A DNA stretch of 64,000 nt from Opitutus terrae PB90-1 (GTDB lineage Bacteria; Verrucomicrobiota; Verrucomicrobiia; Opitutales; Opitutaceae). The stretch lies in NCBI RefSeq assembly GCF_000019965.1, contig NC_010571.1, forward strand, positions 1,922,001 through 1,986,000. The letters run 5' to 3'. The notes beneath the pieces were generated by a model. The model saw only the letters and a program-made list of their open reading frames with translations, had not been told where the DNA came from and searched no databases. Position numbers and translations under genes: made by a program. Below, piece by piece: positions 51,117 through 53,001 of the stretch. How positions within the stretch are numbered: position 1 is the first letter of the stretch; each line of letters opens with the position of its first letter.

Positions 51117-51314
51117 TTACTGCGCTAGGAGCATGTTCCGGGCGTGCTTGATCGTCTTGGTTACCGCGCGCTGGTGCTTGGCCGAAAGGTGGGTGTATTT
51201 GCGCGGCAGGATCTTGCCGGTGTCGGTGATGTAGCCGCGGACAGTTTCTTTCGGCGCCGTGAACGGGATCTCGGCGGGGGTGAGGCTGTGCTGCGGTTGT
51301 TCGTTGGTGCTCAT
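51117..51314 (-). CDS. rpsR: 30S ribosomal protein S18
   Basis: The product is 65 aa. The S18 core ETVRGYITDTGKILPRKYTH and LSAKHQRAVTKTIKHARNM is unmistakable. The usual neighbours rpsF, ssb and rplI are absent, so the gene is monocistronic here with its own promoter and terminator. It is divergent from the tRNA-Arg gene. Confidence 0.96.
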   Translation of the reverse strand: MSTNEQPQHSLTPAEIPFTAPKETVRGYITDTGKILPRKYTHLSAKHQRAVTKTIKHARNMLLAQ

Positions 51315-51419: not shown

Positions 51420-51495
51420 GTCCCCATAGCTCAACTGGATAGAGCAGCGGTTTCCTAAACCGCGCATCCCGGTTCAAGTCCGGGTGGGGGCGCCA
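51420..51495 (+). tRNA. tRNA-Arg (anticodon CCT)
   Basis: A complete 76-base cloverleaf. The acceptor GTCCCCA pairs with TGGGGGC (one G-T pair), the D arm is GCTC...GAGC, the anticodon stem GCGGT/ACCGC encloses the loop TTCCTAA with anticodon CCT, and the T arm CCCGG/CCGGG carries TTCAAGT. The 3' CCA is encoded. It decodes AGG. Its 3' three quarters are copied after each of three downstream nuclease genes. Confidence 0.95.
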
Positions 51496-51504
51496 GCCTG
51501 AGAA

Positions 51505-51759
51505 ATGCACTGGGTCTACATGCTGCAGGACGAAGCGGGGCGCTGTTACATCGGCGAAACGGCAGATTTGGCCAAACGCCTGGCGCAGCATCGTTGCGGT
51601 GGGACGCAGACGACGCGCCGGATGAAGGGCGAACTGCGGCTGATCGCGACCCGCGTGTTGGCGGACGCCCATGAGGTACGTGTCCTTGAGCGAACGCTCA
51701 AATCCTGGAAGAACCCGGCCAAGGCTCGGCAATATCTCGCGGGCTCGACTTCAGGATAG
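51505..51759 (+). CDS. GIY-YIG nuclease family protein, copy 1
   Basis: The product is 84 aa, a minimal single GIY-YIG domain. GIY is represented by HWVYML, YIG by CYIGET, the catalytic Arg by DLAKRLAQH, and the Glu-containing helix by VLERTLKSWKNPAKA. It begins 9 bp after the tRNA CCA. Its last codons and TAG stop (GGATAG) lie inside a copy of the tRNA D-arm sequence. It resembles YhbQ/URI-type small nucleases of uncertain function. Confidence 0.85.
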   Translation: MHWVYMLQDEAGRCYIGETADLAKRLAQHRCGGTQTTRRMKGELRLIATRVLADAHEVRVLERTLKSWKNPAKARQYLAGSTSG

Positions 51760-51814
51760 AGCAGCCCCGACGAAGTCGGGGCGCATCCCGGTTCAAGTCC
51801 GGGTGGGGGCGCCA
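51754..51814 (+). repeat. Chimeric 3' tRNA-Arg copy, number 1
   Basis: GGATAGAGCAG is identical to the tRNA D arm. The anticodon arm is replaced by the hairpin CCCCGACGAAGTCGGGG, and then the variable region, T arm, acceptor strand and CCA are identical to the tRNA. The 5' acceptor strand is missing, so it is not a working tRNA. Confidence 0.85.
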
Positions 51815-51823
51815 GCCTGAGAA

Positions 51824-52078
51824 ATGCACTGGGTCTACATGCTGCAGGACGAAGCGGGGCGCTGTTACATCGGCGAAACGGCAGATTTGGCCAAACGCCT
51901 GGCGCAGCATCGTTGCGGTGGGACGCAGACGACGCGCCGGATGAAGGGCGAACTGCGGCTGATCGCGACCCGCGTGTTGGCGGACGCCCATGAGGTACGT
52001 GTCCTTGAGCGAACGCTCAAATCCTGGAAGAACCCGGCCAAGGCTCGGCAATATCTCGCGGGCTCGACTTCAGGATAG
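51824..52078 (+). CDS. GIY-YIG nuclease family protein, copy 2
   Basis: The gene encodes the same 84 aa as copy 1 and I find no base difference between the two genes, indicating a recent tandem duplication, conversion or assembly duplication. Its start has the same 9-base distance from the preceding CCA, and its stop again falls in the regenerated D-arm sequence. Catalytic motifs are intact. Confidence 0.85.
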   Translation: MHWVYMLQDEAGRCYIGETADLAKRLAQHRCGGTQTTRRMKGELRLIATRVLADAHEVRVLERTLKSWKNPAKARQYLAGSTSG

Positions 52079-52130
52079 AGCAGCCCCGACGAAGTCGGGG
52101 CGCATCCCGGTTCAAGTCCTGTGGGCGCCA
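52073..52130 (+). repeat. Chimeric 3' tRNA-Arg copy, number 2 (decayed)
   Basis: Same layout as the copy at 51754, but the T-arm and acceptor read TTCAAGTCCTGTGGGCGCCA, so the T stem and acceptor are damaged by substitution and a 3-base loss. Confidence 0.8.
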
Positions 52131-52141
52131 GCCTGTGAGAA

Positions 52142-52396
52142 ATGCACTGGGTCTACATGCTGCAGGACGAAGCGGGGCGCTGTTACATCGGCGAAACGGC
52201 AGATTTGGCCAAACGCCTGGCGCAGCATCGTTGCGGTGGGACGCAGACGACGCGCCGGATGAAGGGCGAACTTCGGCTGATCGCGACCCGCACGTTGGCG
52301 GACGCCCATGAGGCACGTGTCCTTGAACGAACGCTCAAATCCTGGAAGAACCCGGCCAAGGCTCGGCAATATCTCGCGGGCTCGACTTCAGGATAG
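52142..52396 (+). CDS. GIY-YIG nuclease family protein, copy 3
   Basis: The product is 84 aa. It differs from copies 1 and 2 at two residues: V to T in TRTLADAHE, and V to A in HEARVLERT. It also has two silent changes (CTT for CTG, GAA for GAG). All motif residues are kept, so selection may be maintaining the protein. It is the oldest or most diverged unit of the array. Confidence 0.85.
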   Translation: MHWVYMLQDEAGRCYIGETADLAKRLAQHRCGGTQTTRRMKGELRLIATRTLADAHEARVLERTLKSWKNPAKARQYLAGSTSG

Positions 52397-52451
52397 AGCA
52401 GCCCCGACGAAGTCGGGGCGCATCCCGGTTCAAGTCCGGGTGGGGGCGCCA
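52391..52451 (+). repeat. Chimeric 3' tRNA-Arg copy, number 3 (right end of array)
   Basis: Intact version of the D-arm / CCCCGACGAAGTCGGGG / T-arm / CCA segment. After CCA the sequence diverges from the other units (ACGGCACGCC instead of GCCTGAGAAA), marking the right boundary of the array. Confidence 0.85.
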
Positions 52452-52542: not shown

Positions 52543-53001
52543 ATGTTGCGTTCCCGCCTTCTTCTCCGCCGTCGGCCTTCGCTGCGCCGGGGCTTTACGC
52601 TCCTCGAAATCATGATCGCGCTGGCGATCCTTGGACTCCTCGTCGGACTGGCCGTCACCAATCTGGACACGATTTTTGGCGGCGCGCAGGTGAAGACCGC
52701 CGAGCTCTTCGTGCGCCAATCGATCAAGCTGCCGCTGACCAGTTACCGGATTCACATGGGCGATTATCCTTCGACGGCGGAAGGGTTGCAGGCGTTGATC
52801 ACCCCGCCGACCAATCGCGCCGACCAGTGGCGTGGCCCGTACCTGGAGCCGGCGACGCTGCCGCTCGATCCGTGGGGAGACGCTTACATCTATCGCTATC
52901 CGGGCACCCACAACAAAACGAGCTATGACATCGTCTCGAAGGGGCCGGACCGCACCGAGGGCACGCAGGACGACATCGGCAACTGGACCGGGGAGAAGTA
53001 A
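52543..53001 (+). CDS. gspG: Type II secretion major pseudopilin GspG-like
   Basis: The product is 152 aa. A basic leader (RSRLLLRRRPSLRRG) is followed by the prepilin cleavage motif GFTLLEIMIALAILGLLVG with Glu at +5. The body has YPSTAEGLQALITPP, the PLDPWGDAYIYRYPG motif and SKGPDRTEGTQDDIGNW, which carries the calcium site of GspG. It is the main subunit of the T2SS pseudopilus and is first of a seven-gene operon. Confidence 0.93.
   Translation: MLRSRLLLRRRPSLRRGFTLLEIMIALAILGLLVGLAVTNLDTIFGGAQVKTAELFVRQSIKLPLTSYRIHMGDYPSTAEGLQALITPPTNRADQWRGPYLEPATLPLDPWGDAYIYRYPGTHNKTSYDIVSKGPDRTEGTQDDIGNWTGEK

Follow-up and report, generated by a model that had tools for sequence, protein, structure and literature searches.

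A small GIY-YIG nuclease gene and a hairpin-bearing tRNA fragment recur together beside bacterial tRNA genes

Introduction

What lies behind the tRNA-Arg(CCT) gene of Opitutus terrae PB90-1, and how could it have come to be there? This transfer RNA (tRNA) gene is part of a window of 64,000 nucleotides (nt), the whole stretch analysed here (contig NC_010571.1, positions 1,922,001 to 1,986,000 of the forward strand). It is followed by three tandem units, each with a gene for an 84-residue GIY-YIG nuclease and a truncated tRNA copy in which a hairpin stands in place of the anticodon arm. We favour, with a probability of roughly 0.6, the reading that each unit is a minimal, transposase-free selfish element of about 320 bp that resides in tRNA genes, where it would spread through homing-like cutting followed by recombinational repair and usually leave one tRNA intact.

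tRNA genes are classic landing sites of integrases. Islands and prophages that bear an integrase restore the target tRNA at one end and carry a piece of it at the other, and their sites lie at tRNA arms. The occupant considered here is far smaller, has one catalytic domain, and appears to use tRNA genes in distant bacteria. The recurrence of its design suggests that a family of minimal selfish DNA has been overlooked. Should the element prove mobile, it would rank among the smallest autonomous mobile elements and would raise acutely the question of how a nuclease of 84 residues can single out one site in one tRNA. It could then also account for orphan GIY-YIG genes and for pseudo-tRNAs that appear in annotated genomes. 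No description of such an element was found in the open-access literature (preprints aside), judged by title and the start of the abstract among the papers listed, which is weak evidence of novelty.

Three tandem units behind tRNA-Arg(CCT)

The intact tRNA-Arg(CCT), the presumed host target gene, lies at 51,420 to 51,495 of the window and was called by both ARAGORN and Rfam (RF00005, 57.3 bits). Three units of 319, 316, and 321 nt stand directly behind it on the same, forward strand. Each consists, in order, of a spacer of 9–11 nt, an open reading frame (ORF) of 84 amino acids (aa), a D-arm remnant that holds the TAG stop codon, the hairpin CCCCGACGAAGTCGGGG, and the tRNA 3' part. In unit 1, the spacer from CCA to the ORF occupies 51,496 to 51,504, the nuclease gene 51,505 to 51,759, the D-arm remnant that overlaps its stop 51,754 to 51,764, the hairpin 51,765 to 51,781, and the tRNA 3' part 51,781 to 51,814, where 34 of 34 positions are identical to the tRNA. 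Unit 2 encodes the same protein (51,824 to 52,078), followed by its hairpin (52,084 to 52,100) and a tRNA 3' part with a damaged T arm and acceptor (52,100 to 52,130). The gene of unit 3 (52,142 to 52,396) differs by two amino-acid changes; its hairpin (52,402 to 52,418) and tRNA 3' part (52,418 to 52,451, again 34/34 identical) lead into the native flank. Unit 3 differs from unit 1 in seven alignment columns.

Much of this had been proposed in a first-pass annotation made from the letters of the sequence, and its direction was largely right. The intact tRNA, the three 84-aa genes (found as ORFs, with a Pfam GIY-YIG match for both distinct versions), the TAG inside a D-arm copy, the replaced anticodon arm in each unit, and the two changes in copy 3 were all borne out. 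The proposed ORF start, 9–12 bases past CCA, narrowed to 9–11 nt, and the proposed unit size of about 319 bp became the three sizes given above. Copies 1 and 2, described as identical, are so in their ORFs; as units they differ in four alignment columns, copy 2 being damaged in its tRNA 3' part.

Long, near-identical repeats raise the suspicion of an assembly artefact or a chance arrangement. The genome is, however, a single contig of 5,957,605 bases, and the copies differ from one another, which speaks against an assembly duplication; moreover, the design recurs in many other genomes. An artefact was accordingly rejected and is scarcely credible. Within this genome, a search with S18 (the gene preceding the tRNA) plus tRNA-Arg(CCT) returned one full match and two tRNA 3' copies (E ≤ 1e-5).

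The GIY-YIG ORF is the only gene-sized annotated content of the units. No integrase domain was found in the 10 flanking window ORFs scanned (E ≤ 1e-4), two of which match nothing, in agreement with the earlier claim that integrases are absent. An integrase island was rejected for the window on these grounds. Likewise, none of the five Rfam matches between 51,300 and 52,600 (E ≤ 1) is an intron family, and the tRNA is uninterrupted; a group I intron with a GIY-YIG endonuclease was rejected accordingly.

A single-domain nuclease

The two distinct protein versions in the window match the Pfam GIY-YIG family (PF01541) with E-values of 1.7e-13 and 1.4e-13 (51.1 and 51.3 bits, against a cut-off of 22.6), and the profile spans residues 1–72 of the 84. 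GIY-YIG enzymes act through two tyrosines, an arginine, and a glutamate. The corresponding residues are kept across the related ORFs described below: Y5 in 166/172, Y15 in 170/175, R25 in 176/176, and E62 in 172/172, in a set whose profile-based collection favours conserved residues. The median ratio of nonsynonymous to synonymous substitution rates (dN/dS) is 0.165 over the 153 of 482 pairs with finite dS, pairs that are not independent of one another; one exceeds 1. The nuclease is thus conserved and, to judge from these ratios, under purifying selection.

A structure model (mean predicted local distance difference test score, pLDDT, of 82; predicted template modelling score, pTM, of 0.67) comprises the catalytic fold and a C-terminal helix. 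The closest solved chains are UPF0213 proteins, PDB 1zg2 (E 2.9e-18) and 1ywl (E 6.1e-12), which are also the top two fold matches; SLX1 (best sequence E 3.9e-6) and UvrC are weaker structural relatives. Searches of NCBIfam, PHROGs, and PADLOC gave only weak partial matches, the best in PADLOC having an E-value of 0.00039 over 21 residues. The protein matches GIY-YIG alone in Pfam, and no Y1 transposase was found.

Recurrence beside tRNA genes in other bacteria

The sequence design is real, recurrent, and conserved. Among genomes of the same order, 7 of 132 match the window protein at E ≤ 1e-6, that of O. terrae included, so that its distribution within the order appears patchy. A 10-protein profile matched 154 of 387 genomes of the phylum (E ≤ 1e-8). 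A scan of named genomes yielded 50 loci, mostly labelled Verrucomicrobiota or Planctomycetota, with five of Patescibacteria type and a few metagenome-assembled genomes (MAGs) under other names; among these, L102 and L126 (loci are identified by L numbers) share sequence with the Planctomycetota MAG locus L128, so that misbinning is possible. In the phylum to which a Peribacter genome belongs, taken as Patescibacteria, related genes occur in 136 of 192 genomes, with up to 14 matches in one; what share of them belongs to such elements was examined for the fetched loci only.

Loci were drawn from the order-wide search, from 30 places of the phylum-profile search and the next 40 listed places in order (out of a longer listing), from all 50 of the named-genome scan, from 30 more, and from 29 new ones of the Peribacter phylum; many come from metagenome assemblies. 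ORFs were kept where the match covered more than 45 model positions at E ≤ 1e-6 and the first 150 nt were distinct. For the neighbourhood count, which excluded six duplicate loci and L138–L183, this gave 178 distinct related ORFs from Verrucomicrobiota, Planctomycetota, and Patescibacteria, 161 of them with 300 nt on both sides. A tRNA gene on the same strand lies within 300 nt upstream of 85 of these 161 and downstream of 17, against three on the other strand (two and one); some ORFs count on both sides, and in L101 one of the called tRNAs is the truncated copy itself. Within 500 nt upstream of the related ORFs, 23 anticodon classes are represented. The recurrent junctions between tRNA and GIY-YIG genes that the first-pass annotation had suggested looking for are therefore found across phyla, and tandem units occur elsewhere too, for example at tRNA genes for Asn (L013/L017, L016, L093, L104), Ala (L066), Lys (L196), and initiator Met (L118).

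A second case with the same hairpin logic exists in the O. terrae genome, at tRNA-Met. A scan of this genome for hairpin chimeras returned seven sites, of which five are chimeras (three at the Arg array and two at tRNA-Met) and two are chance-like, against six for a reversed control pattern. At the tRNA-Met locus (L004, about 1814–1888), a full-length tRNA-Met copy with a hairpin for its anticodon arm, a degenerate T arm, and no ORF stands upstream of the intact tRNA. In three soil Verrucomicrobia MAG loci (L092, L101, L118), two different elements adjoin one another, at initiator tRNA-Met and tRNA-Asn.

Carriage by phages or plasmids is unsupported: the window protein, the one protein so searched, has no tblastn match in plasmids or phages (E ≤ 1e-3), and three exact chimera patterns, the only ones applied, hit no stretch of the viral contigs.

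A hairpin at a fixed internal site of the tRNA

Where exactly is the truncated copy broken? Downstream tRNA 3' ends were placed for 58 ORFs, the shortest of them perhaps by chance. Copies with less than 25 nt of identity were excluded, which left 44, of which 43 are distinct, in 39 loci. In 39 of the 43 copies, a perfect hairpin of at least six pairs has its right foot within 2 nt of the start of tRNA identity, while random places in the same loci passed this test in 223 of 8600 trials (2.6%). To the right of the hairpin, 1565 of 1575 positions are identical to the adjacent tRNA, and identity is perfect in 35 of the 43. To its left, an exact tRNA run of at least 7 nt that ends at a fixed position is present in 34 of 39 (shorter runs occur in L039, L048, L096, L097, and L104).

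The fixed positions depend on the tRNA. Written as the last tRNA position on the left and the first on the right, they are mostly 23/34 for Asn, 26/42 for elongator Met, 38–39/48 for initiator Met, and 8/17 for Ile and Val; for Arg(CCT), Ala, Pro, and Lys, the last left position is 26–27 and the first right position 42–45. The hairpin thus takes the site of the anticodon arm or the D arm, and a third group reaches the T arm (L065, L191, by eye). The first-pass annotation had centred on the tRNA 3' end. That picture needs refining: the sharp feature is the internal site with its hairpin, and it is the other edge of the repeat that falls near the end of the tRNA, as described below.

The letters of the hairpin are conserved at its foot only, which reads TCCCG in 23 of 39 and CCCCG in seven, with five feet in all besides TCCCG. 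At the sixth stem pair counted from the foot, AT occurs 21 times, CG 16 times, and TA and GC once each, and all four types are found among the Asn copies alone. This variation indicates that stem pairing is held while the letters vary. Some copies have two hairpins (L096, L097, L111; by eye).

On a 41-row nuclease tree, the site label requires 10 changes against a shuffled mean of 23.1, and as few in 0 of 200 shuffles, a clustering that near-copies inflate. The initiator-Met and D-arm groups each fall on one side of a branch, and three rows of Asn with site 46 are unclustered. The tRNA type likewise requires 27 changes against 53.9 (0/200), on a tree that is poorly resolved and with the Arg, Ala, and Val labels unclustered. 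The Arg nuclease of the window groups with elongator Met and Lys nucleases of the same site; relatives therefore appear to have switched tRNA and kept the site.

These results bear on the possibility that the GIY-YIG gene is cargo, carried as a passenger by a tRNA-specific integrase or transposase that acts in trans. In its favour, integrases usually target tRNA genes, and one side bears a restored tRNA, just as in integrase islands. The hairpin site nevertheless tracks the nuclease tree, the GIY-YIG ORF is the sole gene seen in the units, and the flanking window ORFs scanned hold no integrase domain, integrases elsewhere in the genomes not having been searched for. We regard the passenger explanation as improbable.

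Empty loci in relatives

Of 61 family genomes, 60 matched a query of S18 plus the tRNA. All 10 relatives examined have a full tRNA-Arg(CCT) and no GIY-YIG match within about 1.5 kb (E ≤ 0.01, six frames, loci of about 3.4 kb), against three such matches at the O. terrae locus. The comparison of occupied with empty loci proposed at the outset thus finds empty ones in 10 relatives, which are other species, not strains. In O. terrae, the array is flanked on one side by the gene for ribosomal protein S18 (51,117 to 51,314, reverse strand, Pfam), which lies outside the element, and by Sua5, and on the other side by type II secretion genes, among them a protein G-like gene (52,543 to 53,001, forward strand, Pfam). 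A similar gene lies downstream of the tRNA in 4 of the 10 relatives (L139 of the same genus, L143, L146, and L165), at a distance of about 0.8 kb in L139. Given the empty relatives and the shared downstream gene, the array is best understood as having been added between the tRNA and the gene that was formerly next to it. A search for empty sites in the genus of another genome, G530, reached that genome only. One of the relatives without a GIY-YIG gene, L141, has a stretch like part of a class B palindrome (see below; CTCGCTCATGGTCGCCAGCCA) within 200 nt past tRNA-Arg.

The mirror form and the outer edges of the repeat

Some loci show the reverse arrangement, with a 5' tRNA part, hairpin, ORF, and intact tRNA in that order. 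A 5' tRNA copy was found in 7 of 12 candidates for this mirror form, all with a tRNA close behind the ORF (L030, L098, L223, L227, L232, L233, and L241), and by eye in L211. In L098 and L030, the repeat also takes in 33 and 76 nt of sequence that precedes the tRNA, a stretch that would contain part of a promoter.

The outer edge of the repeat is less uniform in the main form: for 31 of the 43 copies, it lies no more than 5 nt from the tRNA end. It extends 8 nt beyond that end in L016, 15 nt in L021, and more than 20 nt in 10 copies. Of these 10 long repeats, four are followed by a further unit or a piece of one (L020, L066, L096, L104), and L019 runs into the start of an ORF. The other five are single units (L043, L071, L083, L103, L106), in which the repeat covers 35–60 nt of flank, including the apparent tRNA terminator.

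The 31 repeats that end so near the tRNA end would be accounted for by insertion at the tRNA 3' end with duplication of part of the tRNA, which may be what happens. Both forms appear to be explained better by insertion at the internal site, in which the remainder of the gene is brought along.

The two forms also bear on whether the unit is a module useful to its host, in which the truncated tRNA would regulate the nuclease at the RNA level, for instance as a defence or stress device. Purifying selection on the nuclease and the shared strand of truncated tRNA and ORF are compatible with this. Yet the hairpin does not keep to one tRNA arm, the truncated part follows the ORF in one form and precedes it in the mirror form, the distribution within the order is patchy, and the PADLOC matches are weak and partial. 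Such a module is very improbable, slightly more so than a passenger gene.

A proposed mechanism

The sequence features to be explained are one single-domain nuclease gene, a fixed internal junction, mostly one intact tRNA, and a repeated tRNA part with a GC-rich hairpin at its broken edge; cutting, movement, and any role of the hairpin are inferred from them. In the favoured reading, a tRNA gene that is still unoccupied would be cut by the nuclease in its D, anticodon, or T arm. Repair by recombination would then copy in the element along with the remainder of the tRNA gene and leave the host with a working tRNA, and unequal repair between the tRNA and its truncated copies could produce tandem arrays. 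The hairpin would form a defined end of the element and, in what is the least certain step, would most likely ensure that the displaced piece neither folds like a tRNA site nor is recognised as one. The element probably works like a homing endonuclease element. SegB, a GIY-YIG homing enzyme of phages, is reported to act at tRNA genes and, by way of short shared sequence, to drive the amplification of tRNA and nuclease gene in tandem (PMC13096335), and this behaviour makes the cutting and the repair steps plausible.

Several findings weigh against this reading. Occupied loci, through their intact tRNA, still contain the presumed cut site, in which they differ from classic homing alleles; although the hairpin alters the truncated copy, an intact tRNA adjoins it, and simple self-protection is consequently insufficient as a full explanation. 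No separate DNA-binding region was found beyond the catalytic fold when the 84-aa protein was examined with Pfam and the structure model. Four of the 43 copies do not pass the hairpin test. In L092 and L119, the hairpin is, by eye, imperfect or has a long loop; in L107, it stands further to the left; and the L222 copy is the 3' part of a different, complete tRNA-Ser. Among the mirror candidates, L222 has only 8 nt of a 5' copy, and L224, L225, L229, and L237 have none. The frequent coincidence of the outer repeat edge with the tRNA end and the inflation of the clustering on the trees by near-copies belong here too, as does a sampling that favoured the best-scoring matches. Furthermore, 56 of the 178 ORFs have neither a detected tRNA nor a class B palindrome nearby. 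Some of these are later array units or adjoin missed tRNA pieces (L044, L067, L079, L108, L112, L121, by eye), and many are without any tRNA, so that tRNA association is not universal in the nuclease family. In L067, L079, L108, L121, and L122, only a tRNA 3' part stands upstream, with no whole tRNA (by eye).

Because the intact tRNA is cuttable in principle, the idea that the hairpin takes a direct part in recognition must be counted as a serious rival. Here, what the nuclease recognises would be the hairpin at the end of the element, whether extruded from DNA, in single-stranded DNA, or in RNA; together with the adjoining tRNA piece, this hairpin would serve as the working end rather than as a passive scar. 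The logic is akin to that of the hairpins of repetitive extragenic palindromes (REP) and their transposase, or of the hairpin-plus-flank guides of other systems. The perfect hairpin at the broken edge in 39 of 43 copies, its varied yet paired letters, and the exact tRNA run kept on the element side in 34 of 39 are all consistent with this, as are the profile relatives, UPF0213 and, weakly, the structure-specific nuclease SLX1, and the palindromes set as inverted repeats around the tRNA-less ORFs of L242 and L077. Set against these are the conservation of the hairpin letters at the foot only and the weakness of the SLX1 similarity. The rival is possible, with the odds clearly against it.

A broader proposal can be made only tentatively. 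There is a real chance that the element is of a new kind: a class of transposase-free elements with a single-domain nuclease of about 85 residues that would choose its target by nucleic-acid structure, recognising the stem-loops of tRNA genes (D, anticodon, T arm) and its own terminal hairpin. Such elements would persist across several phyla by inserting in tRNA genes while rebuilding them, and related small GIY-YIG genes may mobilise widespread palindromic repeats. We have not filed the element among homing endonuclease elements, because no separate DNA-binding region was found and an intact tRNA, which self-protection would not cover, stays beside the altered copy.

Relation to known systems

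Among known systems, the free-standing GIY-YIG homing endonucleases of T-even phages come close (PMC13096335, PMC2988022): they, too, are reported to have a nuclease gene beside tRNA genes and a tRNA region as target. I-TevI is reported to owe its long specificity to a separate DNA-binding region (PMC2988022). Unlike these phage enzymes, the present element is chromosomal, has a single domain of 84 aa, carries a hairpin-bearing truncated tRNA at a fixed place, and is found in three phyla. In its protein, it is most like the small UPF0213-type GIY-YIG proteins already named, its closest solved relatives.

Integrase-borne tRNA islands share the restored tRNA at one end and the tRNA piece at the other. 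They differ in that the present units lack an integrase, have a hairpin at the broken edge, and contain one small gene. REP sequences and their REP-associated tyrosine transposases (RAYT) offer another likeness, palindromes tied to a small single-gene mobiliser; here the enzyme family is different, and the palindrome is embedded in a tRNA with a copied tRNA part.

Class B loci and palindromes without a tRNA

In a second layout, class B, a conserved palindrome directly follows the CCA of the tRNA and precedes a related GIY-YIG ORF, and the downstream tRNA 3' copy is short or not found. The palindrome reads ATTCGAC ... GCTCATGGCA ... GTCGAAT, then CCCTGAGC ... GTCGAAGGGC, with variants. Class B loci include one in the O. 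terrae genome (L005, 1221–1776) as well as L024, L027, L034, L035, L041, L045, L063, and L068. In L052, four class B palindromes in tandem precede a single GIY-YIG gene and a further one follows it, as though units lacking an ORF were multiplying.

GIY-YIG ORFs without a tRNA often follow palindromes that start with GTCATTC or GTCATCC and end near GGAATC or GAATCC (L059–L061, L076–L078, L081, L084, L085, L228, L242), and in L242 and L077 such palindromes form inverted repeats on either side of the ORF. Palindromic repeats of this kind might be mobilised by small GIY-YIG genes. Inverted repeats flanking the ORF exceed all 100 shuffles at 10 of 98 loci with an upstream tRNA, 8 of 58 without a tRNA, and 1 of 10 with a downstream tRNA; such repeats are thus not typical of the loci at large, and several of them prove to be tRNA terminators or the hairpins of the element. 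Finally, in L047, the sequence before the GIY-YIG ORF resembles, by eye, what we take to be the 3' end of a transfer-messenger RNA (tmRNA) gene.

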